NCBI GenBank assembly: GCA_030374765.1
Contig: JARGXX010000003.1
Coordinates: 1,550,001 to 1,614,000, forward strand
DNA from: Agarophyton chilense
Lineage: Eukaryota; Rhodophyta; Florideophyceae; Gracilariales; Gracilariaceae
Direction: 5' to 3'
DNA: 64,000 nucleotides
Below, piece by piece: positions 6,630 to 54,811 of this stretch. Position 1 is the first letter of the stretch; each line of letters begins with the position of its first letter. The position numbers were made by a program, and so were the translations under genes. The notes beneath the pieces were generated by a model. That model made no database searches. It was given only the letters and a program-made list of their open reading frames with translations, and was not told the DNA's origin.

Positions 6630-7175
6630 TTTTATGAGCTCGAAGTGACGAGTGACGAATTTGCAAGAGTGAATAGGTCTATCTTCCTTTATACAGTCAA
6701 ACGTTTCATGAAATCCTCTTGTCTCGTCGCCTCAAGGATGTGAGTTATTTTGATACATCCATTCAACTCTCACCACGTGGGCACAAAATGATCAAATACT
6801 GTACCTGTCTTCGATATATCCCTGATACAGTATCCATTCCACTCTTTCGTCTTCGATGTCTTGGTCCGGGCCTATCGCTTTCCCTTGGTAGATCCGAATC
6901 GCGGTGTGTTTCATAGTGTGAAGGCCCAGTAGAAGCATTGCCATCTGTAAAGAATCTTTTCAATGGTATGTGGGTTTCATGTTTCCGTATCCTGATCATC
7001 CTCTCTGTTTGATTTGCTACCCAAACCTGAGGTCCAGTTCTAGGTTTTGACAATCCAAGTTTTCCTACCATTTACTTCAAACAGAGCATTGGTGGCTCTG
7101 CTCTCAGTCCATTTTTGCGGAACAAGATCATTTGACCGATACTCTGCTAGAACGTAACGAGGAAACCACTCAGAG
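6630..7175. promoter_or_regulatory. Divergent promoter region, GMP synthase / Rab escort protein
   Basis: These 546 bp lie between two divergent start codons. A CACGTG E-box/G-box core is visible near 6775. Short open frames on both strands have no recognisable content and are treated as chance. No TATA box could be assigned. Confidence 0.4.
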
Positions 7176-38030: not shown

Positions 38031-38568
38031 AGGCTGGTCCGCCGGGAAATTGATAGGAAAGCCGACTGAAGCGACAAAGTCCGGAGGGAGATGAGCCTAT
38101 CCGACGGGCTTATAAGGCGAGTTCGGCGTCGCGCGCCACCAATGGAAAAGTACCACAATGTGCAGAAGAGCTGACGGAATTGACCCGAGCGGACTGTCAG
38201 GCTTGAACCACGGTTGACGAGGCGCGGACGGTCGCCAAAGAAAGAACGGAGACTAAGGAAGTCCCCAATGAACGTCAGGGGGGAAGAAGCCGATGGACCA
38301 TTCCAGCAACGCGACGCGAGGAATGCGCCAGCGATATACCTATGGCCAGCGCTCACGGCGCGCGGGAGTTTCGGTCCTTAGGCCAATTGATCGCGACCCC
38401 GGCGCCAATGGTCAACTCATGGTTCCCCGCATCCCCGCCTGCGATGACGACGCGACGTCCCGTCGCGCTTATTGGTACTGGAAGCAACAAAGCGCTCGCG
38501 TCCCCTGGGTCAATCACGAGGCCATCTGGACTTCGCCGTGACGGTCGAATCCTAAGGTGGGATATATA

Positions 38569-39011
38569 TGAAGAAGCAACGATAACGGCTAAGCCCTGTA
38601 AGCCGCCGGGCCCTAAGGACTCTTACAGGCGACATGTAGACCGGTCGACATCAGGTGGACTCATGTAGATTATTAATTTTTTTAATTAGTGTAATAGATT
38701 AGCATTACAGAGCCAGGGAGATCTCTGCACCTGGCCAGTACTATTAACTTGGCTCGAGTGACGCTTCTCCCTTAGAGTACGGTAGGCACCGTTAGGACAT
38801 TAAATAACCCCCTTTGCTATATTAGTTCCACCCTTTGGTCTTCAAGCCATCATTTCCGTAGCTCCAACCTTTGGGACTACGCAGTAAACGCCAGCCCAGT
38901 GCACCAAGTACTCTGGGAGTGCGACTGTCAAGGATTCGAACCTTAGGAACCGCTCTACCACGCTACCACCGGTCGAGACCCGTGCGCTGATCCACCATTC
39001 ATTGCGTTACA
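38569..39011 (-). repeat. 443-bp LTR-like repeat (family 3), inverted copy
   Basis: The inverted partner of 36777-37219, keeping both tRNA-type boxes and the TG...CA ends. The right border abuts the RT thumb of chromovirus 3 (PRYSHIAAPLNALLRKGQP). The left border abuts sequence that does not continue that RT. The copy therefore sits at a rearrangement junction, not as a simple insertion into RT. Confidence 0.75.
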
Positions 39012-39370
39012 ATTCCCCGCTACTCGCACATTGCAGCTCCATTGAACGCATTGTTGCGTAAAGGACAGCCTGTTAAGCTCGAGGAATTCGGACCCAGGGA
39101 ACACGAAGCCTTCAAGACTTTGAAGACAAAACTCGTCACAGCACCAATATGGGCATTGCCCAAACCCAACCTACCCTATTCTCTGGATACCGACTCCAGT
39201 GAGTATCAGGTAGGGTGTGCTCTTTTTTTCGGACCCATCCGGACGATCAGAGAAAACTTATCGGTTCCTGGTCACGAACGTTGAAAGTTGCAGAGAAGAA
39301 TTACTCCGTATCAGGAAAGGACTTCATTGCGGTAGTGTGGGCGCTGACTACTTTATGACCCTATCTCCAG
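39012..39370 (+). pseudogene. RT thumb and RNase H start, chromovirus 3 (left part)
   Basis: The plus strand reads PRYSHIAAPLNALLRKGQP, AFKTLKTKLVTAPIWALP and YSLDTDSSEYQVGCALF (RNase H first Asp), then in a shifted frame AEKNYSVSGKDFIAVVWALT and PYLQ. The reading stops at CTCCAG, where the 14-kb DNA transposon is inserted. It resumes with GETLTIHTDQSSLRW at 53383. Decay by stop and frameshift is present in addition to the insertion. Confidence 0.85.
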
Positions 39371-39393
39371 CGTCTGTGTTCTCGGAATGCTAG
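39371..39393 (+). repeat. Left terminal inverted repeat
   Basis: It begins CGTCTG and contains TGTTCTCGGAATGCTAG. It matches the complement of 53360-53382 at 22 of 23 positions. The preceding CAG is the target duplication. Confidence 0.9.
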
Positions 39394-40048
39394 ATAAGTG
39401 TACTAGATAGCTAGTTTTGTAAATAAAAAGCCAAAAAATCTAAGAATTTTGCAGATTGCACTAGTTCGGCACCTGAAAAAAAAAATTTTTGGAAAAAATA
39501 ACTCCATGCATCTTAGTGTTTTGACCACTTAATGCAGTTTAATCTGCATTTTCAGTTTACTGGTCACTTTTGACCGCTCTAGGTGGAGATCCATACCAAG
39601 GCAGTCGTCAGTAACTTCTACCTCCTTACTGGCCCTTTTGCTTACTAGGCTCCAGCGTTCCACCGGGAGGGTATTTGACGTTGAAAAAGTCCACCACCGC
39701 ATTCTCAACCTCGTCCACCTCTCCACTGCTCAAGTTTCTCACACCCGGCTGCCCCACCACACACACATTCCCACCCTTCTTCTCCACATCCTTACCAACC
39801 CTCCTCTTCTTCAGCCGACTCTCTCCAACTCCTCTTCCTTTCCATTCCTCTCTCCCCTTCTTCATCCCAGCCGGTTCCTCGCGTCTCCCTGGCGTCACCG
39901 GCGACCCTTTCGCTCTCCCCCTCTCCTCTCCCACCTCCTTCAGATACTCTGAAACAACTGTTCAAAGAGCGGTATCATATCGTTACCTATGTGCAGCGTA
40001 CAAGGAAGACTAGCAAATTGGAACGCCTTTACTAAGATGTTCAGTTAG
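39394..40048. other. Left subterminal region of the transposon, with a possible small minus-strand frame
   Basis: It holds CTAGTTTT at 39411-39418 and CACTAGTT near 39460, motifs repeated at the other end of the element. A minus-strand frame at 39934-39626 encodes a Lys/Arg/Glu-rich peptide followed by SSGEVDEVENAVVDFFNVKY. Its purine-rich coding strand resembles the cargo genes, so it may be a small gene or a terminal exon, but no family is recognised. Confidence 0.35.
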
Positions 40049-40876
40049 CAAACACTCTTCACATCGACCTTAACGTTCACAATCACACTAACTACACTCT
40101 TCGGAGTTATAGACCCAGCTCTGCAATATACGCTTCCATTCAGATTCAACTCTCTCCTTCGGTTCATTCTCATAACGCTATTGAGGTGTTCTATCCAAAG
40201 CCTGCTACACATTCTCTTAATCGAAGGAGGCGTACAATGTATAAACGCGTTATACGGGTCTCTACAAACTACGCCGTTCAATCCAAACCAGCGATATACC
40301 TGGAAGAAACGAGCCTTTCTGGAATTCGGGGCTCTACTCCTTACTCTACTCATCCCCCTCAACGCCATACTTTTCCTCGTTCACCGCTTCATTCCAGTCA
40401 GCGGTACCCTTTCATCAGACGTGAAGACAAATTGTATCGCCTTCTCCACAGGAGGGGCCGCAGTTGGCGCTTTGGCATATCTTCTCCAGCTTGTTTCTAT
40501 ATCCTTCTTTCCAGAGTCCTATCTTAACACAAAGTTCACAATGACCCTGGAACCACGGAGAACCTCTTTTATGAACCTCGTGCTTGGCGCCCTCTCCCAC
40601 TCTTTTCAACAGGCTTTATTCATATCCAGTCCGGCTGTAACCTTCCGACTACTCGGTATGAGGCTGTCGGCATGCACTTTCGCTGCACTCTCTTCAACCG
40701 CCTTTTCCACATCTTGCATTGAGGGCCCTGGTGTTCCTATACTGCTTGGTAACACAGTGGATGTCGTAATCTTGATATCTTCGACAGTTGTCAATCACTA
40801 TGAGAAAGTGAAAGCAAGTGCTGCTCTCACGCGTTTCAATCCAGTTGTTCAGGAGTTTCTACTGAAAGACGACTGA
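40049..40876 (+). CDS. Multipass membrane protein, probable last exon
   Basis: The open frame runs from a TTAG|C acceptor-like site at 40048/40049 to a stop at 40876 without an early ATG, so a spliced 5' exon is likely. It encodes five or more hydrophobic stretches (for example FILITLL, FLEFGALLLTLLIPLNAILF, ALAYLLQLVSISFF, SFMNLVLGALSHSF, ILLGNTVDVVILISSTVV) and ends in VVQEFLLKDD. No family was recognised. It lies on the opposite strand from, and convergent with, the dioxygenase-like gene. A membrane protein is unexpected cargo for a DNA transposon. Confidence 0.5.
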   Translation, partial: QTLFTSTLTFTITLTTLFGVIDPALQYTLPFRFNSLLRFILITLLRCSIQSLLHILLIEGGVQCINALYGSLQTTPFNPNQRYTWKKRAFLEFGALLLTLLIPLNAILFLVHRFIPVSGTLSSDVKTNCIAFSTGGAAVGALAYLLQLVSISFFPESYLNTKFTMTLEPRRTSFMNLVLGALSHSFQQALFISSPAVTFRLLGMRLSACTFAALSSTAFSTSCIEGPGVPILLGNTVDVVILISSTVVNHYEKVKASAALTRFNPVVQEFLLKDD

Positions 40877-40957
40877 TCACTATTACAAGAAAAGGGGACT
40901 ACTCCACATATTACCTCAAATTGTACTCTTTATTGTTCAATAGGTAACAGATAGTAT

Positions 40958-43318
40958 CTAGTCGTCGTCGTCATCCATTATCATACCGCCGTCTTCATAG
41001 TCTCCATCTGTGTTAGCCGAGTTGAGACCCATCCCAGGTTCATCATCCTCTTCTTCATACTCCTCTTCCCCAATTTTAACAACTTCCATTTTATAATCTT
41101 CATCCAACTCCTCATCCTCATCTACCTGGACGTCTTCATCATCACCCTTGTTGGAATCATCCTCTTCGAACTTAGGCCGAAATGCTGGTTGCCTATGCAC
41201 TGCGTCTGGTAGCTTGTACCCATCCGGTACCAAGTACATGTGATACCTCATGCAAACTTCCTTAACCAATGCATCCTCGTATCCAGCTCCAGCATGAAAC
41301 ACATCTCCTCTTCCAATAAAAATGGAGTACGGCGGAATCCTGAACTTCCTCACTACCATCGTCCGAGACAGCCGCTTCAAGCTCCTGTCGTCGGGCACGT
41401 ACATGTTATGTGACCTCTCACAAACCCAAAGGATGAACGAACTCGCTCCCGACGCCATCATGAAGAACCCTGGAACCTCTTCGACGTTCTTCTCGGCATC
41501 GGTCAGTCCTCGAAAGTCCGTATGTAACACCTGCCTTGGACAGCCCTCCGCCGTACACAGCACTCGCCCCCCTGTTTCAGGGGCATACATCTCTTCTTCC
41601 CCGACCGGTTGTTGCACAACCGAAGAGCGGCCGCAATCTGTCCAAACCTCGCATCCAACAATGCCCTTTTCCTCATCATTAACACGTTGTTCTCGTCCCC
41701 CTCCACAGAATCCACAATCCCCACCTTCGTCGTAATGTACCGCCCAACTCCCCTCATTCTATCTCCAGCGTCTCTCTCCTCACTAGCGTTGATTATAGGG
41801 TCCCATTTCTTTCTATTCCCTTCAATCGTCAAGTCCGGCTGGTTCAAGAAATCCGTCTGGAAGAACTCTAGCAAAGTCCCAGTCACATCCCCATCGAAGT
41901 TTACCCCCCTCTTCTTCGCCTCATCCGCCATCCCCTCGTCCGTGGCAAACTCTTCCAGCACACAAAATCCTTTCTCCATCAGCTCACTTCTCTTAGTCGC
42001 GAAGTACTCGCGGGCCAAGTCATCCCTCTCCATTGCTGCCATCCATACCGCCTGCTCTTCATTCACAGGGTGGTCCTTCGTCGGTAGAATCACCCCAAGA
42101 ACCGGTTCTTTCGTGGAACCCAGTTCCTTGTGCCTGTTATGAGCAGCACGCCAATAAACCGCATGGTGCACACTTTTCAAGTCTTCTACCCTCAAGCACT
42201 CCGCCCTGTGCTTGTTCCGTAGGTAAATCATCTGCATCCAGAGGTGCTGATGCTTCACTCCATTTTCACCCGCCAGCCACTCGCTCGGAAGTGCATTCAC
42301 CAAGTACACCCACGACATACCCGACCCCCCCACATACGGTCTCGCCCTCTTCAGCCCCTTCGGAACACCCTCCGGATTATTGTCTTCGAAGCCACGAATT
42401 TGCACACCTTCCTCCTCTTCGTCCCCTACAAATGCACCCTGCCCCCCGTCATCATCCAGTTCATCCTCACTCGATGAGAAAACATTGAGTACATGTTCCT
42501 CCAAGAAGCGCTTCAGCTCTTTCCTGCTCATCTTCTTGAACACATCCACAACGTCAGCCGGTATTTGAGCCGCAGATGTGCCCACCGTCTTTCCCCTCTT
42601 CCTCTTCCGCTTTAAAGGCTGTTCATACTCGCGTTCATCATCACTAATGACCACAGCCTTTCTCTTCCCCTTTCTCTGTCTAGGTTCCATCACTCTCTCA
42701 CCCGCAGCATCCAGGCCGCGCTCAGTACCTTTTCTAGTTCGTGTGATGCGTCTGGGAACCACGGTTTCCTGGTAGGGTACAGACTCCCCAGCACTAGACG
42801 AAGGAAGATTCACAGAAGGTGGCACCTCCACCACATCCTTCTCCGCACTTGGGGACGCCAGACTCACTTTCAGACCGCCTTCAATCCGCCTTTGTGCGAT
42901 TTTCATCTTCTTCGACACCAACCCCGGCCACCACCGCTTCGGACCAATGAGCTCCATCTTCGCCGTTTGCATGCAAAGGTACTCCCTTAAAGACACCTCG
43001 TTCTTTGCCATCACAATTGTGCTGTCTCGAACCTTCCCCGCCGTCAGACCCTTCTCCTTTCCCGCCCTTTCGCATATTTGGAACATTCCTATGGCGCATT
43101 GGAAGAACTGCGTTCGCGTCTCCTGGAAACGTCCCATATTCCCCGTAGAACCCATCCTCACCCTCACATGTAGCTGCCACCCAGGTGTACACGGTGCATT
43201 CTGTCGGCAGACAGAGGTGCGCGAGAACTTCATCGGGACTCCCGATGAAGTCGAAGTGCTCCTCTGACGGGCGACAAAATGCAACCAGGATAGCTGCGAA
43301 GTCGTTCCGCAACAACTG
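40958..43318 (-). CDS. 2OG-Fe(II) dioxygenase-like nuclear protein, frame-interrupted
   Basis: A minus-strand gene read in three pieces. The first has RNDFAAILVAFCRPSEEH and LCLPTECTVYTWVAATCE (43315-43100). From about 43.1 kb to 41.62 kb the second has FQICERAGKEKGLTAGKV, a basic/acidic linker with KRKRKRGK and the N-terminal part of a dioxygenase-like fold (LMEKGFCVLEEF). The third (41617-40958) carries the H-x-D pair (LHTDF), a distal His in FHAGAGY and an Arg in RYHMY, the order of Fe(II) and 2-oxoglutarate ligands, then a polyacidic tail. A one-base frame change joins pieces two and three. The fold resembles phytanoyl-CoA-dioxygenase-type enzymes. The substrate is unknown; nucleic acid or histone demethylation is a hypothesis. 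Confidence 0.6.
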
Positions 43319-43449
43319 TTCTTCCGTGCGCGCTCCTCAACCGTACTCACAATCTTTCCGTACCCACCCGCACCCACCCGCACCCGCTGCTCTCTTTCAC
43401 TCAGGCTCTCGTGACGACCGCCCGTGAGGTTGTTTGAACACGTACATAA

Positions 43450-45807
43450 ATGGCTCCAGAACCCACGAGAACTTCTTCATCGCCTGCGGCAGACACCTTC
43501 CAAATGGGTAAACTGTTTGGTACGGGGGATGAAGTTATCAGGGCGTGTCTGGATTTGCGTGATCGTTACGCATCAACGAGGCGGAAGGAAGATGAGCCGC
43601 GAAAAGTGGGGCACACTGCATTCATCGATTTCGCAATTGCCAATCGCCACATCCTACCGGAGACCACGAAGTTTTTTTATACTCTCCTAGGTCCCGACCA
43701 CACCAATTACACAGAAGATGAGCTCCGAGTTGTAGGAATGAGGGGCTCGAACTGTCAGAATTATTTCTCGGCGAGGTTGCTGGATATAAGGGATGGGGAC
43801 CTGGATAGGCGCGTGAGGGACTTTTGGAACGCGTACGAGGCGGTGGAGTTCAAGGACATCCCGAAGAATGTCACTTTGACAGAGTTCTTCAAAGGTCTGG
43901 ATACAACCCGAAAGAAGGCGAGCAAAAGCCAGGCTCCATTCGCGACCGACTTTCCGACAATGTTCCAGAGGTTGCTGTTCCTCATGTGTATTCAGTCGGT
44001 CTTTATGGAGAAGAGAAGAGTCTCCCGTAAGCAAAGAAAGCGGGACAGAACCTACGATACGCCATTTTCGAAGGTGGCGATTTATGACAAACCAGTAGCT
44101 CAGCGTGTGGGCTTTGGTGTGCAGCTCGTCAATAACGCGTTGGACAGCTTCACCCAGTATTTGGGATTCCCTGGCGTGGAATTCATGGTTTTGCCCTTTA
44201 TCCATATACGATATTCTGATATGCAGTTCCAGGCAATCGGAAACAGAAGGGATGGGTTCTCTCACAAGGACATGGCCCAACGACTCCTTCCTGGTAAAAA
44301 CCGTACTTTATTGGAGGAGAATGTCGTCCCATGGGCGTTGAACCTGCCGGAGTACGTTGACACTCCACTTCGTATGTTGGCCAAAGAGTTTCTCGCTGAC
44401 TTGCACAAAGTGGTGGTGAATGAGCAGCTTTACTCTATATCAGCTCCGGAAAGATGGGACGTTCTAAAACCGTTTACATACACTTTGCCTAGAGTGTTTG
44501 CGGAGAGATTCGACTGCTTCTCGAACTCTCTTATCTCTACCATCTCGGAATACATATCGCCACTAAAGCTGCGAGGGAGTGTGGAGGTGGAAGTGGTGGC
44601 TGCAACAAAGGCGGAACCTACTATGGTTATGGAAGAAGACGAGATAGAAGTTATACCCCCTGAGAAAGATTCGGAGGCTCCGGCGGTGGAGGGTGGAGAG
44701 GGAGTGGAGGGTGGGACCGGGAATGAGGAAGAGAACATGGCTGTTGGACAGCATTCGTCCACAGCTGGACCAAGGTCGGTCGAATCTGAGTCGGTGGATA
44801 TTCTGCCGCCTCACGACCTTACTTCTCTGGATGATATAATGTCTCTCCAAAAGTGGGAGTCGGAGATGGAAAAGCACTGTCGAATGCACAATTGTACTTT
44901 CGAGAACCTGGTGGAGATTGACGAGACATTGCGCAGCAATGGGGTCTCTCCGATAGGGAAAGTGCAGTTGGTTCTCATGGACCCGCCGTATAATATACGT
45001 GCGAAGAAGTACAGGAAAAACAGCTGGTACGACGTTCTTAACTGGCAAGACATGGTAAAGACGGCGAAGCTCATCTCTAAACTTCTGCGTCCGGGAGGGC
45101 ATTTCGTTATATTCTGCGCGATTGGCCAGGTGAACGAATGGAAAGAAGTGTTGGGTCGAATTGGTGCAAAGGATGAGAATGGACAGAAGAGCAGGTCGTT
45201 TGTCGTGGACAAGGTCCAGCTGCACTTCATTCGCTCTCAAGGCAATCCGATGCGTAATCCCGGACGTAGTTCGTGCTCCCTGTTTCCCAGAACAGAGTAC
45301 GCCATTCATGGAGTTCGCAGCGGGTTTTCCTACGCCGAACAACATGGCATGGTGAACTATGAGAACTTCAGCTATGTACCATCGCGATATCCGGGTTACG
45401 ATAGCGTGATTGACCAAGTGCCTCCCATGTCGAATGGTGAAACACTTCTATGGAGAAGGAATAATGCCAAAGGAGCAGTTACGTATCAGAATGTGCGGGC
45501 GGAACAGAAGTCACGCGCTTTGCTGAAGGAGCTCATCAGCAGGTTTTCTCAGCCGGGAGACATAGTGGTGGACCTCTTCGCCGGAACATTTTCAACGGCC
45601 ATGGCATGCATGGAAATGGAAAAGCACCGTCAGTTTCTAGGGTGTGAGCCAGATCCGCAGTGCTTTGCTCATGCAAAGCACGCCGCTACAGTGAAATTTG
45701 CGTCATGCATGCGAAACAACGAGACGGACATTCATATAACGCAGGATGTTCGGAACGCTGTGACTCGAGTGACATGCTTGTTTCCGGACGTCGTCATAAA
45801 GCGTTAG
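43450..45807 (+). CDS. DNA N6-adenine-type methyltransferase with novel N-terminal region
   Basis: 785 aa with a clean ATG. The C-terminal third is an AdoMet-dependent amino-methyltransferase in permuted order: the catalytic DPPYNI at residues 511-516 (motif IV) precedes VVDLFAGTFSTAMA (Asp708, motif I) and FLGCEPDP. This order and the DPPY motif fit N6-adenine/N4-cytosine DNA methyltransferases of the bacterial beta type; the eukaryotic MT-A70 group has DPPW. Residues 1-470 (GKLFGTGDEVIRACLDLRDR and onward) are not recognised. An acidic linker (about 390-460) joins the halves. It is divergent from the dioxygenase-like gene across about 130 bp, and the SET gene follows 39 bp after its stop. 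Confidence 0.85.
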   Translation: MAPEPTRTSSSPAADTFQMGKLFGTGDEVIRACLDLRDRYASTRRKEDEPRKVGHTAFIDFAIANRHILPETTKFFYTLLGPDHTNYTEDELRVVGMRGSNCQNYFSARLLDIRDGDLDRRVRDFWNAYEAVEFKDIPKNVTLTEFFKGLDTTRKKASKSQAPFATDFPTMFQRLLFLMCIQSVFMEKRRVSRKQRKRDRTYDTPFSKVAIYDKPVAQRVGFGVQLVNNALDSFTQYLGFPGVEFMVLPFIHIRYSDMQFQAIGNRRDGFSHKDMAQRLLPGKNRTLLEENVVPWALNLPEYVDTPLRMLAKEFLADLHKVVVNEQLYSISAPERWDVLKPFTYTLPRVFAERFDCFSNSLISTISEYISPLKLRGSVEVEVVAATKAEPTMVMEEDEIEVIPPEKDSEAPAVEGGEGVEGGTGNEEENMAVGQHSSTAGPRSVESESVDILPPHDLTSLDDIMSLQKWESEMEKHCRMHNCTFENLVEIDETLRSNGVSPIGKVQLVLMDPPYNIRAKKYRKNSWYDVLNWQDMVKTAKLISKLLRPGGHFVIFCAIGQVNEWKEVLGRIGAKDENGQKSRSFVVDKVQLHFIRSQGNPMRNPGRSSCSLFPRTEYAIHGVRSGFSYAEQHGMVNYENFSYVPSRYPGYDSVIDQVPPMSNGETLLWRRNNAKGAVTYQNVRAEQKSRALLKELISRFSQPGDIVVDLFAGTFSTAMACMEMEKHRQFLGCEPDPQCFAHAKHAATVKFASCMRNNETDIHITQDVRNAVTRVTCLFPDVVIKR

Positions 45808-45846
45808 AAGTCCTGGAAAACACCTACCGGATTTCCCGAGCATCAG

Positions 45847-46560
45847 ATGTTTCCACCCCATATCGTGGATTTTCTCTCCTCCAGGTGGCAGGATAAGAAT
45901 ATATCGGAGATTGGGCGACGGCAGGCGCTGTATGAGTGGCCAAGAAGTTTTCAAGGAAAGATGTCACTGTTGGATTGGAATGCTAATCTGGCAGTGGAGG
46001 CGACATTATGTGGTTGTCGGATTGCAAATGCTGGAGTTGGTGTGCACACAAGACGCCGGGTGATACAAGGTGAGACTGTTTGTTACTTTTACGGGACTTT
46101 GGTGTACCATGATCTTTCAAAGCGGAAGGAAGTTCATAAGGCATACGGAGGGGGGCTATTGAAAGCGACTGATGATCGTTTTCGGCAGTACGCGATGGAG
46201 ATAAGCGTCCGAGGGGAAGTGTTTCACAAGCCACCAGGAAGAATTAGTGGGGTGTCTCTTATTCCGGTGTGGATTGTCCCTGCTCCATTTTGCTTGGGGG
46301 GAACAATTAACGATCCCAAGTATGTGGAAGGGGATAGGGACAGGGATGCGGTTGAAGACGGGTTAATGAGACGCCGAACTGCAAATGTTCGGGTCATCAG
46401 AACTCTGGGGACGGGGCGGACCCCATTTCAGTTGAGAGACTATAGATTGCTTTCTGTGCAAGCAATTCGAGATATAGAAATAAGAGAGGAGCTGTTCAAG
46501 GATTATGGGACAGAGTATATCTGGAGTATGAATAACACGCCAGTCATAGTAATCGATTAA
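45847..46560 (+). CDS. SET-domain protein
   Basis: 237 aa. SET core features are GVGVHTRRRVIQGETVCYFY near residues 63-82 (the N-terminal GxG/start strand), TANVRVIR near 177-184 in place of the usual NHxCxPN, and AIRDIEIREELFKDYGTEY (about 208-226), the RDIxxGEEL..DYG..Y motif. The Asn of the NHxC turn may be served by TINDPK or ANV. No post-SET cysteines are visible, as in compact SET proteins of protists. Family members methylate lysines of histones or other proteins. It lies directly downstream of the methyltransferase on the same strand, so coordinated expression is likely. Confidence 0.75.
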   Translation: MFPPHIVDFLSSRWQDKNISEIGRRQALYEWPRSFQGKMSLLDWNANLAVEATLCGCRIANAGVGVHTRRRVIQGETVCYFYGTLVYHDLSKRKEVHKAYGGGLLKATDDRFRQYAMEISVRGEVFHKPPGRISGVSLIPVWIVPAPFCLGGTINDPKYVEGDRDRDAVEDGLMRRRTANVRVIRTLGTGRTPFQLRDYRLLSVQAIRDIEIREELFKDYGTEYIWSMNNTPVIVID

Positions 46561-46884
46561 AAGTGCATCGCTTTTGTTACTTTAATTCATTGTATTGTAC
46601 CAGATATTGTGGGCTTTTACTATGTTTGTCGCTACATATGACGTCAAAGCGTGACGTAGTACATATGCTAAAGGAAAGTCATGTACACCGAAGGAGAATA
46701 CTTTTCCAATATCTGGTGCGTTCTAGCGCATATTTAAAATATCTGAAAAGTTTGGGGGTTTTCTGAGAACACGAAAAGGGTGGAGGTATATTTTTGGAAG
46801 CAGAATGTTTCGAATCTTTTCTCCCATCCATCGCATTGCAACGCGTGGAAAACCATACCACGATCGCTCTCTCTCTCTTCAACC

Positions 46885-48618
46885 ATGGCTCCGAAGCGCA
46901 AATCGAGAAGTGAGAACACTAGCGGGCGCGGTACAAAATCACGGCGGCATGGAGGGGATGCGGAGGGCGGAAGGGACAAGGGGCGTAGGCTCCAGGGCGC
47001 GAGTGGAGAGAAGGGAAGCGTGCGCTTGAGAGGTAGATCAAGGCAAGATTGTGGCGAAGGAGAGGCGAGTAGGGGCAAAGGAAAGGCTGTTCGCGCAAAG
47101 GAGACGGTGACGGAGGAGAGTTCGGAGCAAATCACGTCGCGTACGGGAGAGATGGTGCGGAGCGGCGATGGAAAACGGGATGGCGTGCGAAGCAACCGCA
47201 CGCGTGTACTTAGAAGTGGATTGCGGGGGAGGGTGAGCAGAGCTCCAGGAAGGACAAGGAGAGGGGATGCATCCGAGCGGACTCTAAGTGCTGTACTCAC
47301 GTCTTCAGCTGATGTGGAGCCGGTAAATCCATGCTCTGCACCTGAAGGAGGTGAAGAGATTCCGAATGAGAGGACGAAGGGGCGTAAGGAGGGAGAGAGA
47401 ATGTTTGGAGAACGTGGATCCCGCCTCAGAGGCGTTGAAGAAGCAGGGGCATCGTTTACGGGTATGAGGGAAGAGGACGGTGATGATGAGATACAGAAAG
47501 GGAGAATAGAGAGTAGCCGTAGTGGGGAGGTTAGAATAGGTGGACCCAGTAGTGGTCTAATCGCGGGCGCAAGAGTCGTTCGAGAGAGAACAGAAGGAGA
47601 GAGTGTTGGAGTTACCGCGGGGGAACAGGCGGAAAGATGGGAGGGGGCGAACTTGGATTACGTGGAAGAAAGGAGAGAGCGTGCAAGGGAAAGAATTGGG
47701 AGTGTTCGAGTTACAGGAAGAAGAGCGATAGACGAAAGGGAAGGCAGAGAAGTGCATGTGAGTGAGGGGGGGAGAATGGGGTTTGCTGGAGGAAGAACAC
47801 GTGGTTCAGGGGAGGAAGGCGATGGAAGAGTACCAGTTCTTTCTCATCAGAGAGAAGATGTCGAGCGTTTGCCACCGAGGAGAGGGGTGGGTTTGAGAGT
47901 TGAAGGGTTTGAGGTGAACGCAAGGCGAAGGACGTCGGAATGTATGCGAGTAAAGAGAAACATTGTATTCACAAGGAATAATGATAACGGGGAGAATGCG
48001 AATTTAAATGTCGAGGAGAACGCCGTCCGTATAGTGGAAGATGAAGCAAATGATGATGAAATAGGTTTGTTGCCGCGGTCGATGCTAATTGAGAACATGA
48101 ATGTGTTGAAGGGACAAATGGGACGTATGAAAGAAGACAGCTACAGTGTGATGGTAAGTTTGAAAATGACCCAAACGGAGCTGTATCGGGCGAGGGAGGA
48201 AATGAAGCAGCAGAATGTGCTGATTGAGAGTTTTAGGGAGGCGTTGAAAGGTAGAATCGCTGGGGAAGAGAGGGGGGAGGGAGGCGTGACGCGGCGACGA
48301 AAGTATGACATTGGAGTGCAGGAATGCTTTTATGGATTTGCACGTCGTGTGTATGATAGGATTCTTCATTATGCAAAACTGGAGGCATCGGAACTTTGCT
48401 TCGACACCGAGAATGTGGGTCGAAGCTGGATGAATAGAAGTGAGGCGGTTGGGGAGAGTAGGGAGGAAAGTTTGTTTGTGATGGGAGAGAAGGAAATGGT
48501 TCCGAGATGTCCAATTGAGGTTGCATATGAGATGAGACCGTATACGCCGTCGACAGAGGGCGGGAGCCATTCGTTGTTGAAGCACGTGGTAGAGACTGAG
48601 TTAATGGGAGAGAAATGA
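46885..48618 (+). CDS. Large basic/acidic low-complexity protein, N-terminal part
   Basis: 577 aa from the ATG in CAACCATGG at 46885. The first 400 residues are Arg/Gly/Glu-rich, starting MAPKRKSRSENTSGRGTKSR, consistent with a nuclear, possibly DNA- or RNA-binding disordered region. A coiled coil follows (about 400-460, VLKGQMGRMKEDSYSVMVSL). After GVTRRRKYDIGVQECFYGFA the sequence becomes globular. The TGA at 48616 ends this frame, but the same frame stays open after it and continues as the next entry. No family was recognised. Confidence 0.55.
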   Translation: MAPKRKSRSENTSGRGTKSRRHGGDAEGGRDKGRRLQGASGEKGSVRLRGRSRQDCGEGEASRGKGKAVRAKETVTEESSEQITSRTGEMVRSGDGKRDGVRSNRTRVLRSGLRGRVSRAPGRTRRGDASERTLSAVLTSSADVEPVNPCSAPEGGEEIPNERTKGRKEGERMFGERGSRLRGVEEAGASFTGMREEDGDDEIQKGRIESSRSGEVRIGGPSSGLIAGARVVRERTEGESVGVTAGEQAERWEGANLDYVEERRERARERIGSVRVTGRRAIDEREGREVHVSEGGRMGFAGGRTRGSGEEGDGRVPVLSHQREDVERLPPRRGVGLRVEGFEVNARRRTSECMRVKRNIVFTRNNDNGENANLNVEENAVRIVEDEANDDEIGLLPRSMLIENMNVLKGQMGRMKEDSYSVMVSLKMTQTELYRAREEMKQQNVLIESFREALKGRIAGEERGEGGVTRRRKYDIGVQECFYGFARRVYDRILHYAKLEASELCFDTENVGRSWMNRSEAVGESREESLFVMGEKEMVPRCPIEVAYEMRPYTPSTEGGSHSLLKHVVETELMGEK

Positions 48619-48654
48619 GAGTCGATAAGGGAAGCGGGGAGGAGAGAGGAGTGC

Positions 48655-49518
48655 GTGGAAAATGTAAGTGCGGATAGGTTCTTGAGACAGAGAATGAAGC
48701 ACACATTGAGCGATGTGGTTGGGGTGCGGAAGCGAGCAGCGCGTGATAAGCTGTTTTCCATGCTTGGATATGATTTGATCGCGAAACGAGCTAAGGTGAC
48801 TGAAGGGACGGAGCTTTGGGCGGGGTTGAAGAAGCAGATTGAGGAGGAGCAGGAGAAGTTGATGGGGTCGGGGGAGGATGGGAGAGGTAAGCTGTATGCG
48901 TGGAAAACGAGTGCGATTGATGATATTACTTATTCTGGATCGAAGGTGTCTGAGAACTTGCAGGACTTTGGTGAGGCAGATATGTATTTTCGAACTCAGG
49001 TGTCGTTGAAAGTGTTGGAGGAGTTTATGGGCTACGCGGTAGAGAGTCACAGAAATGGAGAAAGGCAGTATGTGGATGGGACGGTGATGCATCTTGCGCG
49101 ACTTGATGCATGGATTGGATGTGTGGTGACCACGATGGATAGAGACGTTGGGCGGGGAGGCCAAAGCCAACTTTTGTTCTCGACGCTGTTTGGGAGGTTT
49201 CTGCCACTGGCTGTTGAGGACATATTGAGGGTTGCCTGGAACATGGTGAAGGATGAGTATGCTGAGGAGTTTGAGAATGATGGATTCTGTGGAGGGAATC
49301 GTAGAGATGTGAGTGGGAATAAGGAGAGAATCGCGACGGTTGGGCTATGGATACCGTCGAGAGAGAAAATCTATCTGGCGATAAGGGAGGAGTTTTTCAT
49401 GGAGAATCTCACGAGAAGACTTGGAGCGGTGTTAGATTGCTATATAGCGTCATGTGGACCAGAAGAACCACGGTTCAAGCGCTTAGCGTTGGGGAGTAGG
49501 CAAGGAGTGGGAGAGTGA
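48655..49518 (+). CDS. Globular C-terminal part in the same frame
   Basis: About 287 aa in the same phase as the preceding frame, separated only by one TGA and 36 bp. Content is helical and ordinary (KRAARDKLFSMLGYDLIAKR, FRTQVSLKVLEEFMGYAVES, AVEDILRVAWNMVKDEY), unlike low-complexity sequence. There is no ATG at its beginning, so it is probably the C-terminal part of one roughly 880-aa protein. The TGA is then either a mutation, removed by a small intron, or read through. Function unknown. It converges on the transposase (87 bp apart). Confidence 0.5.
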   Translation: MENVSADRFLRQRMKHTLSDVVGVRKRAARDKLFSMLGYDLIAKRAKVTEGTELWAGLKKQIEEEQEKLMGSGEDGRGKLYAWKTSAIDDITYSGSKVSENLQDFGEADMYFRTQVSLKVLEEFMGYAVESHRNGERQYVDGTVMHLARLDAWIGCVVTTMDRDVGRGGQSQLLFSTLFGRFLPLAVEDILRVAWNMVKDEYAEEFENDGFCGGNRRDVSGNKERIATVGLWIPSREKIYLAIREEFFMENLTRRLGAVLDCYIASCGPEEPRFKRLALGSRQGVGE

Positions 49519-49605
49519 TAAGGTACGGGGGAATAAGGGGGTAAGGAGGTGGAGCAAGATGGGGGTCGGCTATGGAAGAAAAGCAGCGGTGACTATTTTA
49601 TTGGA

Positions 49606-52600
49606 TCATGTGCCTTGGGAGGTATTATTATGGGTGCCACCCAGTGGTGGTGTTGTGCCACCAGTGGTGGTGTTGGAGAAGTAGGGCTTGGCAGTTGGGT
49701 CTCGGTAGAATCTGTTGAGGTAAAATCGATGGAAGCGCCAGTGCAATCGAGGGGTGAAGGGGGGTGCGGGGTAGTTTTGGCGAAGTACATGAACGGGGCC
49801 GAGAATGGAAGAGGATGGTACGAGGCCGAACCAGGGGGAGACGTTGTCGGAGTTGGAAGTGTTTGAGATAGGAAGGGGGTGGGCGGTGTGGTTTTGTTCG
49901 TCGTCTGTTGCCCATCGGAGGCAGATGCAATTGAGAGAGACATCGACTTGATCCTGGGGTGGAACGAGTTCGAGGAACTGAACGAAGGCGAACTCGTTAT
50001 GAGTGGAAGGGGAAGAAGGGGTGGTGAAGCGAAGAAGAGAGTTGAGCTTGCAGACCCAGGCGGTGGGAGTGGGGTTGGAGAAGCTGGAACCGGCAACGAG
50101 GATGTGGGAGAACTTTGGGGTTTTAGAGGGACCGAAGGAGGGAGCAGCGAAGATACGTTGAATGAGTGGGAGAGGGGGATCTTTGACGGCGAGCTCGTTT
50201 CGATCGGCGATGTAGTCGTCTAGGGTTGGGGTGAAGCCGCCGACGACGTATGCGGAATTGACGAATGTGAGACGGGTTTGGCGGAGAGTGGGGGAGTCCT
50301 GGTTGAGAGCTAGTGTTTCGAGTGTGAGTGTGACGAAGGAGGGGAGTGCGAGGGTTCCAATCTGTGAGATGATGGCGATAGTGTCTGGGGAGAAGAGGTC
50401 CTGAAGGGAAGAGATTGTTGAGTGGGGGTTTGCTCGAAGGAATTTGTGAGCGGTGATGAGATCGGAAAAGGAGGTGTGCTTGCCATCACGGACGAAACCT
50501 GGTTTGCGGGCTTGGAAGGGAGGAGGAGGGGCATGGGAGGATGAGGTGACGGAAGGATCAGCGGAGAGAGAAATCCAATTGTTGACGGCATCGGAGCGTT
50601 CGATGGCACGGATGGTTTCGTTGTGCGCGGTGGGTCTGCGCTTGGAGGTTCGGGAGTAATGTGCTTTGAAGAGGGTATGGGCTTGTTCGAAGATGCCTGC
50701 ATCGTTGAAGTGGAGACCCCCAAAGCGTCGAATGTCGTCTACGATGTGATCGAGGAGGTGGAATTTGAGGGTGCCAAGGTTGGAGGTATGGTATGGACCG
50801 AGAACATCGACAGCTCTGTGCTTGAAGGAATGGATTTGGGAGGCGAGTTTGGCAAGACGAGAAGTGGTCCATTCGGGGACGGAGTTGTAGCACATGGAGG
50901 TGAGGAGGAGGTCTGTGTACTTGGAGAAGACGGTTGTGATGGGAGCGGAATTGGCTTCGTCACAGCAGCGGTCGAAGAAGGCGCCGATGAAGGGGAAGAC
51001 CATGTCGAGGGCGCGGTAGTCTTTTGCTTCTAGCATGCCGCGGACGCCGTCAGTTGTGAAGAAGACGTTGAGGGACTGCCCGCTTTCGGAAGTAGAGAAG
51101 TCGATGTGGAGGCCGGTAGCTGGGGAATGATTTTCGATGGTGGTAAGGATGAAGTTGGAGTGCTTGAGGATGGAGGTGCGGACGGAGTGGAAGGAACGGC
51201 GGGAGTTTGTGGAGCTGATGGTGGTGAAGAGGTGTTCTGATCTGAGACGTTCGATGGCGGCGAGCTTGATGAGTTTGGAAACGCCGAGGTGGAAGTTGTG
51301 GAGGGGTTCGAAGGGGAAGATGTTGTATGGGGTGAGGAGGAGAGTGATGTTGAAAAGGGGGTAAGACTCGAAGAGGGAGGGGTATTTTGCGAGGGAGAGG
51401 GAGTGGAGTGCTTGGAGAGCTTGTTCCTTGAAGTTGCGCGAGACTCTTGGCTTGCGGGCGAGGAGAGCTGCTTCGGAGTCCTTGAGGAGGGAGAAGTGTT
51501 TGTTGGGGGCTGCAAGGGTGAGGGGAAGAGATCGAGGGGGATGGGCGTGAGAGTGTTGGTGGAGCTGTGAGCGAGGGACAGAGCATCTGTAGCAGGGCTG
51601 CTGGGGGCGGGTGCCGTGGGAGATGGCGAGAATATCCTTTGCCTCGGGAATGTCTGCGCAGTAGCTGGCGATGATGGGGTGGCATTGACGAAAAACGCCG
51701 TCGGCGTCGCGGAAGGGGAAACCGGGGAGGGCGGAAGAGAAGAGAGGTTGAAGGAGGGAGGAGATGGTCTGCTGTATGAGTTCCATTTTTGTTTGGCGGG
51801 GGATGGAGGAGGAATGAGTGATGATATCTGCATCTGGAGAAGGAGTGATTGGGGTGAAGGAGGTGGGAAGATAGCCGAGAAGTGTGAGATTGTCGGAGAT
51901 GCAATTGCGGCGAAAGGAGTCGGAGAAGTTGAGAAGGGTGATGTGGAGGGGGTAAAAGGTGATGGAAGAAGATTTGAGAGAGGTAGAGGACTTGTCGGAG
52001 TAGATTTGGACGAGGCCGATGAAGGAGTCGATACCGGAGGAGTGAGGGAGATGCCAGACGATGTTATCTTTTGTGGACTGCATGATGGCGGTCTTGAGTG
52101 CGGGGACGACTTTTGAGCCGAGGGTGGCTGCCATGGGGTGTGCGAAGGCGGGGGAGCCGGAGGCGGATGTTTGGGAGATGGGGTGGAAAAAGGTGTTCTT
52201 GAAGTGTGCGAAGGCGAGCTGTTGTTTGAGGACATAAATTGCGTCTTTCTGGAAGAGGGTTGCGGAGAAGCGTTTGTGGGGATCGAAGATGGTGGAGGGG
52301 GCGAAACCAATGGACCTGATTCTCTGGTGGAAGAGGTCTGCCTGGAGCTCGAGGCATTGCTTTGCGGAGGAGACTGAGTTCCGGAATGTTGATTCGGAGA
52401 AGTGGGGATCATTAAGGAGAGTGATGATTTCGTCAGCCTTTCGTTGTCCAAGCTTGGAGGCGATGGAGGAGATGTAGAGGACCATTTTCTCCAGGTGGGG
52501 GTTGTCGAGGGGGGGAGTGGAAGGAGGGAGGGGGGAGAGAGCGAGAGAGGAGGGGGAACCGAGAGGGGCAGTGGCGACGTGGATGGCGTCCTGGGTGTGG

Positions 52601-53073
52601 AGGGAGAGAGGGAGCTGGTCTTGGAGGTAGGAGTCATGGTGTGCAAGAGGGACGTTGTGGGAAGGGCGATGTGAGGGAGGAGGATGAGGGGGGAGTTGTG
52701 AGGTGGACTTGTGGCGTTTTGTGCGGGGGGGAAGTTGGGTTACTTTCCGCCAGGGGAGAAGAAGCGCTTGTTGGCGGAGAGGCGATGAGGGCACCTTCTC
52801 TGGTGCCGCTGGAGGGCGGGGATTTCTCGGGCGAAGAAGGAGCAACCGTTGAAGCAGCAGGAAGGCATGGTGGGTGGAGGAGAGGTGGTGGGAAAGAAGT
52901 TGGTGGGGGGCGTAGACGGAGAGAGAGTATGGCGCACACAGGGCACGTGACAGGGGAGGCCGGTGGAGAATAATATAGACTGCAAGGCACGTGAGGTCTG
53001 CCAGGTCGGGCTGCGATTCTATTGCGATTGATATGGATGGTACTAAATGTTCAATTTCTATTTTGAGGTCCAT
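49606..53073 (-). CDS. Plavaka/CACTA-like transposase
   Basis: The 1155-aa frame includes FRQCHPIIASYCADIPEAKD (first catalytic Asp region, D near residue 474), the zinc-binding PCYRCSVPRSQL, FEPLHNFHLGVSKLI, and LKFHLLDHIVDDIRRFGGLH followed by EQAHTLFKAHYSRTSKRR. These are ordered as in Plavaka/Tnp2-type transposases of the CACTA superfamily. The true start is probably the ATG at about 52868 in another frame, which encodes a Cys/His finger (CCFNGCSFFAREIPALQRHQ); an intron or frameshift must join it to the main frame near 52.7 kb. The product would bind the terminal repeats and cut and paste the element. The C-terminal part appears intact. Confidence 0.75.
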   Translation of the reverse strand: MDLKIEIEHLVPSISIAIESQPDLADLTCLAVYIILHRPPLSRALCAPYSLSVYAPHQLLSHHLSSTHHAFLLLQRLLLLRPRNPRPPAAPEKVPSSPLRQQALLLPWRKVTQLPPRTKRHKSTSQLPPHPPPSHRPSHNVPLAHHDSYLQDQLPLSLHTQDAIHVATAPLGSPSSLALSPLPPSTPPLDNPHLEKMVLYISSIASKLGQRKADEIITLLNDPHFSESTFRNSVSSAKQCLELQADLFHQRIRSIGFAPSTIFDPHKRFSATLFQKDAIYVLKQQLAFAHFKNTFFHPISQTSASGSPAFAHPMAATLGSKVVPALKTAIMQSTKDNIVWHLPHSSGIDSFIGLVQIYSDKSSTSLKSSSITFYPLHITLLNFSDSFRRNCISDNLTLLGYLPTSFTPITPSPDADIITHSSSIPRQTKMELIQQTISSLLQPLFSSALPGFPFRDADGVFRQCHPIIASYCADIPEAKDILAISHGTRPQQPCYRCSVPRSQLHQHSHAHPPRSLPLTLAAPNKHFSLLKDSEAALLARKPRVSRNFKEQALQALHSLSLAKYPSLFESYPLFNITLLLTPYNIFPFEPLHNFHLGVSKLIKLAAIERLRSEHLFTTISSTNSRRSFHSVRTSILKHSNFILTTIENHSPATGLHIDFSTSESGQSLNVFFTTDGVRGMLEAKDYRALDMVFPFIGAFFDRCCDEANSAPITTVFSKYTDLLLTSMCYNSVPEWTTSRLAKLASQIHSFKHRAVDVLGPYHTSNLGTLKFHLLDHIVDDIRRFGGLHFNDAGIFEQAHTLFKAHYSRTSKRRPTAHNETIRAIERSDAVNNWISLSADPSVTSSSHAPPPPFQARKPGFVRDGKHTSFSDLITAHKFLRANPHSTISSLQDLFSPDTIAIISQIGTLALPSFVTLTLETLALNQDSPTLRQTRLTFVNSAYVVGGFTPTLDDYIADRNELAVKDPPLPLIQRIFAAPSFGPSKTPKFSHILVAGSSFSNPTPTAWVCKLNSLLRFTTPSSPSTHNEFAFVQFLELVPPQDQVDVSLNCICLRWATDDEQNHTAHPLPISNTSNSDNVSPWFGLVPSSSILGPVHVLRQNYPAPPFTPRLHWRFHRFYLNRFYRDPTAKPYFSNTTTGGTTPPLGGTHNNTSQGT

Positions 53074-53359
53074 TTTGGGACCGGTTTTTTGTACTAATCT
53101 GTCAATCTAGAGCGCACAAAGATTGAATCTGCTCCTGCACCACTTTTCTACTTTTACCTTTAAACTGCGGCGACAGAAAGATTCACGCTAGTTTTACCTC
53201 CATCAAAACTAGAAAAACTGCAGATATGTGCTAGTTTTCCTTCCCATACAAACTAGCACTAATGAACGAATGAAAATATTTTCGGAAATAAACACCTCCA
53301 AATTTGGATAAATTCACGGGTTTTCGGTCATTTCAATTCGTCCTTTTTTGACCACTGAA
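53074..53359. other. Right subterminal region of the transposon
   Basis: An AT-rich, non-coding stretch with CTAGTTTT at 53188-53195 and 53231-53238, its complement AAAACTAG at 53205-53212, and AAACTAG near 53251. The same word occurs near the left end. Repeated subterminal motifs are typical transposase-binding sites in CACTA elements. Confidence 0.5.
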
Positions 53360-53382
53360 CTAGCATTCCGAGAACACTGACG
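53360..53382 (-). repeat. Right terminal inverted repeat
   Basis: CTAGCATTCCGAGAACA followed by CTGACG, the complement of 39371-39393 with one mismatch. The CAG that follows is the target duplication, and then the RNase H reading resumes. Confidence 0.9.
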
Positions 53383-54811
53383 CAGGGAGAAACACTTACC
53401 ATCCATACGGATCAATCGTCCCTACGATGGTCATTATCACTAACAGACCTCTCCGGGAGGTCAACACGTTGGCGCTTACGCCTGTCTGATTTCGATTTCG
53501 AAGTTAAATATAAGAAGGGACTGGCTAATATACAGGCCGACGCTTTCTAGCGATTGGAAGCTTTAGGGGAAACCCAAGGAGAAATCGATGACGATTTGCC
53601 GTGTTTTTCAATGGAGATGAATAACGATGAAACGCAACTTGAAGATCAAGAAGATGAAGTGGATTACTCCCAATTGGACCCTCTAATGCTAACCCATGGA
53701 ACTGAACCTCCTGATCAACTTGAGCGTTCCTCGATCACGGAGCTCTGCAATGAGAAACTAACGGAGAACTTCTGTACAGCGATACGCTCCCGTCTTAACG
53801 GGGGGGGGGAGGATTTGCCCTTTTCGCTCAGTGGGCGAAGCTATCTGGACACCCAGGAGGAACAAAGTTGTTTATAACCCTAAGAAAAGGGACTTCTATT
53901 GGCCAACGTTGGCAATGGACTGCCATGCTATGGTGAAGCTATTCAGAACGTGCTCGATGAATCGCGTGAAACTCTTTAAGAAGATGAAAAATACGACCCT
54001 ATTCCCGGCGAAGGCGCCTCTACAATTGGTCAGTATCGACATACTTGGAGAGCTAATTCGTTCCTATCAATTATATCGCTACCTATTGGTAATTACGGAT
54101 CGATTCGCAAAACTTGTACGGACTGTAACGTTGAAGAAGATACCCGCCTCGGTAATAGCTGAGGCTTTCATAAAACACTGGTTGTATGTGTACGGGCCTC
54201 CGGAAGTTCTGCTATCAGATAATGGAAAACAGTTTGTCGCTAAGTTCTTTCAGAAAGAACTTTGCCAAACGTGTGCGATGAATCGCGTCAAGCTCTTTAA
54301 GAAGAGGAAAAAGATGACCCTTTTCCCGGCGAAGGCGCCTCTACAATTGGTCAGCATCGACATACTTGGAGAGCTAGTTCGTTCCAATCAAGGATATCGC
54401 TACCTATTGGTAATAACGGATCGATTCTCAAAACTTGTACGGACTGTACCGTTGAAGAACATAACCGCCGCGGTAGTAGCTCAGGCTTTCCTCAAACACT
54501 GGGTGTATGTGTACGGACCGCCGGAAGTTCTGCTATCAGATAATGGAAAGCAGTTTCTTGTTAAGCTCTTTCAGAGCGTTTGCCGAATAATGGGCATCAA
54601 GAACGTGTTCACCACGACTTACCACCAACAGTGTAATGGTCAGGTGGAACGCTACAACCGTATGTTATTAGCCGCTCTTCGGCATTACATCGCGGATCAC
54701 CCGAAAGAGTTGGACATGTACGCAGACACACTTTGTTATCTGTTATGCGTACAACACGCATGTGCATACGTCTACAAAGGCGGCTCCTTTTCAGCTCGTG
54801 ATATCACGTAG
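53383..54811 (+). pseudogene. RNase H end and integrase, chromovirus 3 (right part)
   Basis: It continues 39012-39370: LTIHTDQSSLRWSLSLTDLS, RLRLSDFDFEVKYKKGLANI, a linker rich in Asp/Glu, then an integrase with HHCC remains (LSGHPGGTKL, FYWPTLAMDCHAM) and a core with VSIDILGEL, YGPPEVLLSDNGKQF and a QVERYNR motif. The core's first part occurs twice in tandem. Frameshifts near 53545, 53850 and 54760 and stops mark it as decayed. The integrase C-terminus and chromodomain were not clearly found beyond 54.8 kb, where the convergent accessory gene begins. Confidence 0.85.
53947..54588 (+). repeat. 321-bp in-frame tandem duplication in integrase
   Basis: Units 53947-54267 and 54268-54588 both start at AACGTG before CGATGAATCGCGT and encode MNRVKLFKK through LLSDNGKQF. 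The offset of 321 bp is exactly 107 codons, so the frame is kept. The copies have diverged by scattered substitutions, so the duplication is not recent. It doubles the first catalytic Asp region. Confidence 0.9.

Follow-up and report, generated by a model that had tools for sequence, protein, structure and literature searches.

A Plavaka-type transposon of the red alga Agarophyton chilense with a predicted methyltransferase-SET protein and a putative ParB-dioxygenase protein

Transposons that carry an oxygenase gene or a SET gene are already known. Here, we describe a window of DNA, a stretch of 64,000 nucleotides from the red alga Agarophyton chilense (GenBank assembly GCA_030374765.1, contig JARGXX010000003.1, positions 1,550,001 to 1,614,000 of the forward strand), in which positions 39371-53382 hold a transposon whose new part is a single predicted protein that appears to join a DNA methyltransferase (MTase) to a SET domain. 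The TET+ Plavaka elements (PlavakaB) of Agaricales share with it, in the available part of their account (Kojima 2025, PMC12730594), a Plavaka transposase, target duplications of 2 or 3 bp and a dioxygenase as cargo. They differ in their host, in their ends, which are CATCA...TGATG there and CGTC...GACG here, and in their dioxygenase: in the one described here, which is fused to a ParB-like part, a likeness to TET/JBP was not detected. An MTase-SET fusion does not appear in the available part of that account. The PE-type enzymes of the same account are tied to TET/JBP by structure only, and the cargo dioxygenase described here was compared by sequence and profile.

Other described systems share single components. 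HarbingerS and MuDR elements of oomycetes harbour a SET gene inside a DNA transposon, as here, but belong to other transposase groups, and a DNA-methyltransferase fusion goes unmentioned in the available part of their description (PMC12730594). The N4CMT protein of bdelloid rotifers, as far as the accessible part of its description goes (PMC8885841), likewise combines a permuted bacterial-type amino-methyltransferase with a chromatin domain, and the rotifers lack C5-methyltransferases, to which the alga shows no match; it is, however, a host gene with a histone-reading chromodomain, whereas the gene described here belongs to a transposon and encodes a SET domain that would place histone marks. 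Among phage and bacterial DNA methyltransferases, some have a ParB-like N-terminus (PHROG 67 and 498; our loci L091 and L093). These enzymes share the MTase domain, but the ParB-like part of the element is joined to the dioxygenase rather than to the MTase, and the matches are 22-29% identical among the rows listed. No description of an element with this gene set was found in the literature searched, a scope that stops short of subscription papers, supplements and outside preprints.

A broken copy of an abundant transposon

The window element, 14 kb long, is a damaged derivative of a DNA transposon whose transposase is of Plavaka type and whose complete length is about 18-19 kb. The 23-bp inverted ends and flanking CAG on which the original prediction was built are present, with 22 of the 23 bases complementary, and its single transposase gene is a Plavaka match (PF18759, E 2.9e-22, 79.8 bits against a cut-off of 26.3), one of 123 scored from 235 candidates in the genome. 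The full ends are CGTCTGTG...CACTGACG, with CGTC...GACG as terminal letters. With up to three mismatches, the left-end pattern occurs 485 times in the 79.76-Mb assembly (247 forward, 238 reverse, a count that includes right ends, one base different from the left end) against five for the reversed control, and a 31-base pattern specific to the right end occurs 96 times with at most one mismatch against none for its control. Joining each listed end (88 left, 96 right) to the nearest fitting end within 30 kb yields 61 left-right pairs of 3.0-23.6 kb, which were not individually inspected and in which an unpaired end does not mean an absent partner; their lengths form groups at 15.4-16.2 kb and 17.9-18.9 kb.

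When the window flanks joined by one CAG were used as an empty-site query, all 40 scored matches (149 candidates, 86-90% identity) crossed the junction, as scored for continuity and not by comparing the CAG letter by letter; since copies of the flanks run through this junction, the window element is an insertion with a duplication. Its 3-bp duplication was expected to be general, yet it is confined to the window copy among the 16 copies read at both ends: the 15 others have 2 bp in a count by eye (TA in six, TT in three, CA, AA and TG in two each). The ends had been sampled in 18 copies, of which C12a, whose right end was not found, and C10b were omitted.

Both duplication lengths agree with the 2- or 3-bp duplications of Plavaka elements. 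Plavaka termini are TGT..ACA (PlavakaA) or CATCA..TGATG (PlavakaB) in the available part of the description (PMC12730594); because CGTC...GACG matches neither, the element is named here for its Plavaka-type transposase and placed in neither group. The original label, CACTA/Plavaka-like, thus keeps its second half and loses its first, the ends not being of CACTA type and the duplication usually being 2 bp instead of 3, which also removes the element from CACTA/EnSpm. A CQRC seen by eye in the transposase of the copy on contig C2 may be compared with the C(2)C motif of the CMCT clade, whose other motif is H(3-4)H.

Other copies with the same ends and cargo exist in the genome. Among 57 scored MTase copies (210 candidates), 30 sit between correctly oriented listed left and right ends, another 24 are accompanied by a single listed end, and three are without any; one or both listed ends are therefore near 54 of the 57, and a Plavaka match lies within 12 kb of 51. 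Seen from the transposase, 51 of the 123 scored Plavaka matches have a scored MTase nearby, which argues against a transposase never accompanied by this cargo, and 27 have neither an MTase nor a right end. The cargo is optional in the element family. In the copies on C10 and C117, the transposase, MTase-SET and ParB-dioxygenase frames are all open (the charged frame listed below was outside this comparison). The C2 copy serves as reference for the MTase-SET, the transposase and the charged frame, and its ParB-dioxygenase gene is interrupted by stops. Fuller copies also contain a reductase-like frame with a weak ApbA_C match (E 0.026) and one PDB match (E 0.9). At C77:806123-811600, two MTase copies lie on opposite strands less than 1 kb apart and share the same two stops, an inverted duplication.

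The window copy is laid out as follows, with positions counted in the window.

39368-39370, no strand: target duplication CAG, left, read from the sequence
39371-39393, plus strand: left inverted end, 23 bp, CGTCTGTGTTCTCGGAATGCTAG, from the sequence and the genome-wide pattern count
39371-39942, plus strand: 572 bp at the left terminus, after which 2.3 kb present in the C10 copy is missing
40049-40876, plus strand: 275-codon hydrophobic stop-to-stop frame, a possible membrane protein, with no match in the family search
40958-43176, minus strand: ParB-dioxygenase remnant, residues 490-1228 of the 1228-residue C10 protein, with the ParB half deleted, from comparison with C10
43450-45804, plus strand: methyltransferase part of the MTase-SET (N-terminal region and N6_N4 DNA methylase domain, DPPY before DLFAGT), from the family search
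45805-45807, plus strand: TAG stop parting the methyltransferase from SET (TCG in the C2 copy)
45808-46560, plus strand: SET part in the same frame as the methyltransferase, with a 21-bp deletion, from the family search and comparison
46885-49518, plus strand: charged frame, 877 codons in the C2 copy, with no match in the family search, from comparison with C2
49606-52868, minus strand: Plavaka transposase, from the family search (1087 residues in the C2 protein)
53360-53382, minus strand: right inverted end, 23 bp, CTAGCATTCCGAGAACACTGACG, from the sequence and the genome-wide pattern count
53383-53385, no strand: target duplication CAG, right, from the sequence and the empty-site query

Besides the transposase, the content amounts to four genes or remnants (the hydrophobic frame, the ParB-dioxygenase remnant, the MTase-SET and the charged frame), fewer than the five or more other genes first counted, and all four long genes are damaged. 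The N-terminus of the transposase (up to about 52725, zinc-finger-like by eye) is out of frame with the remainder, the charged frame is ended early by a TGA at 48616-48618, and the ParB-dioxygenase remnant is frameshifted between about 41566 and 41602. The 21-bp deletion in the SET part recurs in seven others of the 30 fetched loci. Two stretches of the C10 copy (coordinates of L073) are missing from the window copy, one of about 2.3 kb at 571-2879, close to the left end, and one of about 2.5 kb at 6117-8579, in the middle. The left deletion junction is common to 18 of the 40 scored left-end matches (158 candidates), which run through the full 1001 bases and include the window copy and its duplicate, and the other 22 stop at 572. 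In the C10 copy, the first methionine of the hydrophobic frame comes only at codon 165. An Rfam scan of the window gave no match.

Two composite cargo proteins

The DNA methyltransferase, SET protein and dioxygenase of the original prediction fared differently. The first is a family match in the window (PF01555, N6_N4 DNA methylase, E 1.1e-18), the second matches PF00856 at E 0.003 with 18.4 bits, under the cut-off of 22.4, and the third is recognized by motif only. MTase and SET form one open frame, of 1036 or 1043 codons, at 12 loci among the 30 best-scoring of the 57. The PF01555 domain has DPPY placed before its FxG motif, the arrangement that defines beta-class amino DNA methyltransferases. 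A search for homologues returned 21 proteins at E<=0.001 (source codes lgn, ena and jgi), of which seven have a precomputed SET match (PF00856). In an alignment of 19 of them (P0020 and P0021 omitted; 24-49% identical), the PP of DPPY, H551, D704, D708, G712 and T713 are invariant, as are G889, Y893 and N986 in the SET part, and D511 and Y514 of DPPY are nearly so. This retention of key residues in distant homologues speaks for the MTase-SET having a role somewhere.

The best PDB relatives of the MTase are the adenine enzymes DpnA, CcrM, RsrI and MboIIA. Together with DPPY, which, as opposed to SPPY, is the adenine-type motif, these nearest solved relatives make N6-methyladenine the likeliest product. 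The domain also matches PHROG 67 (E 2.4e-26). A viral or prokaryotic home for the whole protein was considered and rejected, the database matches being only distant or partial (22-29% identical among the rows listed): the viral contig search gave no relatives with the inner MTase piece and one distant locus with the MTase-SET profile, the genome contig search gave three distant bacterial loci at 22-24% identity, and the phage search gave 48 records, all below 60% identity and none spanning 80% of the query.

The second protein joins ParB-like and dioxygenase-like parts in one 1247-codon open frame in C10, and stop-free frames of the same length are also listed for C117, C86, C12 (172515 copy), C99 (1436079 copy) and C105 (1414401 copy). 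H-x-D is present in all five aligned rows, and HAG and R in the four rows that reach that region. H-x-D...H...R is the motif of 2-oxoglutarate Fe(II) dioxygenases, and the name given to the putative enzyme is a motif-level one, taken from this pattern. The TET/JBP link first proposed for it was not borne out, with no Pfam or PDB match and two weak, non-significant ones (E 0.49 and 1.3); PF06035 (E 0.065-0.19) fell below its cut-off and was dropped.

For the ParB-like part, the indications are a DGxHR motif, one weak ParBc_2 match and an hhalign profile alignment to the N-termini of L091 and L093, which are ParB-like (probability 44, E 2.3e-4, 64 columns), against a probability of 0.2 and E 0.25 in a control with the dioxygenase part. 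A Pfam search of the element's own protein gave no ParB match, and the PDB matches of this part were not significant (SAC1, E 0.66-0.93; 1vk1, E 1.5). Homologues of the protein include P0022 and P0023 (Gracilaria domingensis), 41% and 33% identical to the dioxygenase query, and P0024, 27% identical over 264 residues and joined to a DGHHR stretch; the two parts are joined in both P0022 and P0024. No relatives were returned by a viral contig search with the ParB-dioxygenase.

Possible roles of the cargo

Judging from sequence, we consider it an even call that this Plavaka-type transposon encodes two two-part marking or editing proteins, the MTase-SET and the ParB-dioxygenase, that serve the element. 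In the mechanism we propose, the MTase-SET would place a DNA mark, most likely N6-methyladenine, together with a mark on histone lysines at one and the same site; the ParB-dioxygenase, aimed by its ParB-like part, would oxidize a base or another substrate and thereby remove or change the first mark; and the pair would act in trans on the element's own copies. We infer the enzyme activities, their substrates, the aiming by the ParB-like part and the benefit to the element. It is a tentative suggestion that, by marking copies in trans, the pair lets the element avoid host silencing or time its transcription or transposition. The effect may run toward escape or toward repression, and our leaning to escape or timing is similarly cautious. 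If true, a mobile element that encodes an MTase joined to SET would tie DNA marking directly to histone marking, through the parasite and not through the host; similar copies number in the dozens, and the transposase and both enzyme frames are open in two or more of them, so that transposon-borne chromatin marking becomes a testable question.

The host adds a further, more speculative dimension. No match to the C5-DNA-methyltransferase family (PF00145) was found in its genome by a search that was positive in 10 of 14 controls. An MT-A70 search of the same genome gave no match, and its control gave none either. Such an absence would not be general for red algae, since DNMT3 is reported in Cyanidioschyzon and Galdieria in the available part of one study (PMC9998398); a survey of the methylation machinery in 180 species, also available in part, includes three red algae (PMC10538959). 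It is conceivable, though doubtful, that in a genome lacking C5-methylation enzymes the transposon brings an epigenetic system complete in itself, with a joint writer of DNA and histone marks, a ParB-aimed editor of the DNA mark and host relatives of this editor at telomeres, and that the element is then a main source of DNA methylation in this alga.

Several results weigh against a marking system that serves the element. Purifying selection between MTase-SET copies inside the genome was sought in the 30 best-scoring of the 57 loci and not found, the observed/expected nonsynonymous/synonymous ratio being 0.89 for the 30 loci and 1.03 for the 12 stop-free ones, whose stop-free state is circular as evidence because they were chosen for it. 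The element's right end is present and a scored MTase absent at 45 of the 123 scored Plavaka matches. The SET domain of the MTase-SET protein reaches 21.3 bits, the family cut-off being 22.4; the MTase also has a weaker PDB match to PvuII, an N4-cytosine enzyme (E 0.0033); the dioxygenase part has no significant family or structure match in sequence and profile searches of Pfam and PDB; and the ParB likeness is weak. The PF00145 controls were all prokaryotes, and a split host C5-methyltransferase gene could be missed because the search ignores introns.

Neutral drift between copies, together with the many copies without a scored MTase and the breakage of four genes in the window copy, would suit modification genes that were acquired as passengers and ride along with no role in the element's life cycle. 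Transposon proteins that act in trans nevertheless drift neutrally after insertion, so that this drift is equally expected of, and fits, the trans-acting pair proposed here and does not discriminate useful cargo from passenger. The passenger explanation is made unlikely by the fused MTase-SET frame and key residues kept in homologues at 24-49% identity, by the 12 stop-free loci among the 30 best-scoring, and by the comparison of the ParB-dioxygenase with a telomere-side relative on contig C95 (dN 0.63 and dS 3.1, near saturation, over 1195 codons; dN 0.39 for the dioxygenase part, for which dS was not computable).

The marking could instead serve silencing, the MTase-SET repressing the element itself or rival elements and limiting copy number. 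Bdelloid rotifers, which lack C5-methyltransferases, offer a precedent in which transposons are marked by an MTase that was captured from bacteria and bears a chromodomain, with SETDB1 as a proposed partner (PMC8885841, available part), and the host studied here likewise has no C5-methyltransferase match; the MTase-SET gene, however, lies on a transposon rather than being fixed in the host, and the element is abundant in the genome. We regard repression as no likelier than a passenger cargo, that is, as unlikely. Different substrates are less probable still: N4-cytosine, RNA or protein for the MTase, and a non-histone protein such as the transposase for SET. The PvuII match points that way, and the substrate assignments of both domains rest on sequence, but the best solved relatives of the MTase are adenine-specific DNA enzymes, and DPPY rather than SPPY precedes FxG. 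A fungal CACTA/Plavaka element with a TET/JBP enzyme, the setting originally assumed and one recalling the TET-bearing Plavaka elements of Agaricus bisporus and Gymnopus confluens in the available part of PMC12730594, is highly improbable given the missing TET/JBP match, a homologue from the red alga Gracilaria domingensis and nine matches to light-harvesting proteins in the host genome. The one of these that was tested is closest to PDB 7y5e, a structure from the red alga Porphyridium, and then to Lhcr-type and other algal proteins.

Telomere-side relatives and surroundings of the insertion

Whether the cargo also occurs outside the element, the original prediction's own point of doubt, has two answers: the scored MTase copies almost always have one or both listed ends nearby, and a relative of the ParB-dioxygenase stands beside a telomere. 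This relative, a member of a second family, is a 1335-codon open frame on contig C95 (1-9500), 41% identical to the element's protein over 1195 codons. It lies 1.7 kb inside a 2.1-kb telomere repeat and reads toward it, flanked by direct repeats in the manner of a Y'-type subtelomeric unit, and no element ends were found in C95 1-9500. Both ends of C95 and the start of C76 carry telomere repeat units; none were found in the 60 terminal bases read of C116, C96, C103, C33, C98 and C92, and the contig ends of C116, C103, C98 and C32 have their matches within the C95 unit.

The second family comprises 22 places at 35-36% identity, weaker or partial matches (25-45%), many with stops, being left out. 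On contigs longer than 300 kb, all 17 places, of which six make up a single array, are oriented toward the closest end of their contig, at a distance of 1.8-52 kb; on contigs shorter than 60 kb, one of five is so oriented and four are not. Part of this bias may come from the assembly, because contigs tend to break at repeats. The array, at C21 639192-667037, consists of six genes in a row with a spacing of 4.8-5.6 kb.

On both sides of the window element, before 39368 and after 53385, the sequence resembles a Gypsy-type retroelement, with RNase H- and integrase-like frames seen by eye; the element is nested inside it. Window positions 37871-41871 recur 38.1 kb downstream on the same contig (C3:1625976-1629975), where 1498 of 1500 bases of the left flank are identical and the element part has 2480 identical positions, 19 mismatches and two gaps. 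Rather than a second insertion, this repeat appears to be a segmental or assembly duplication close to the end of the contig.

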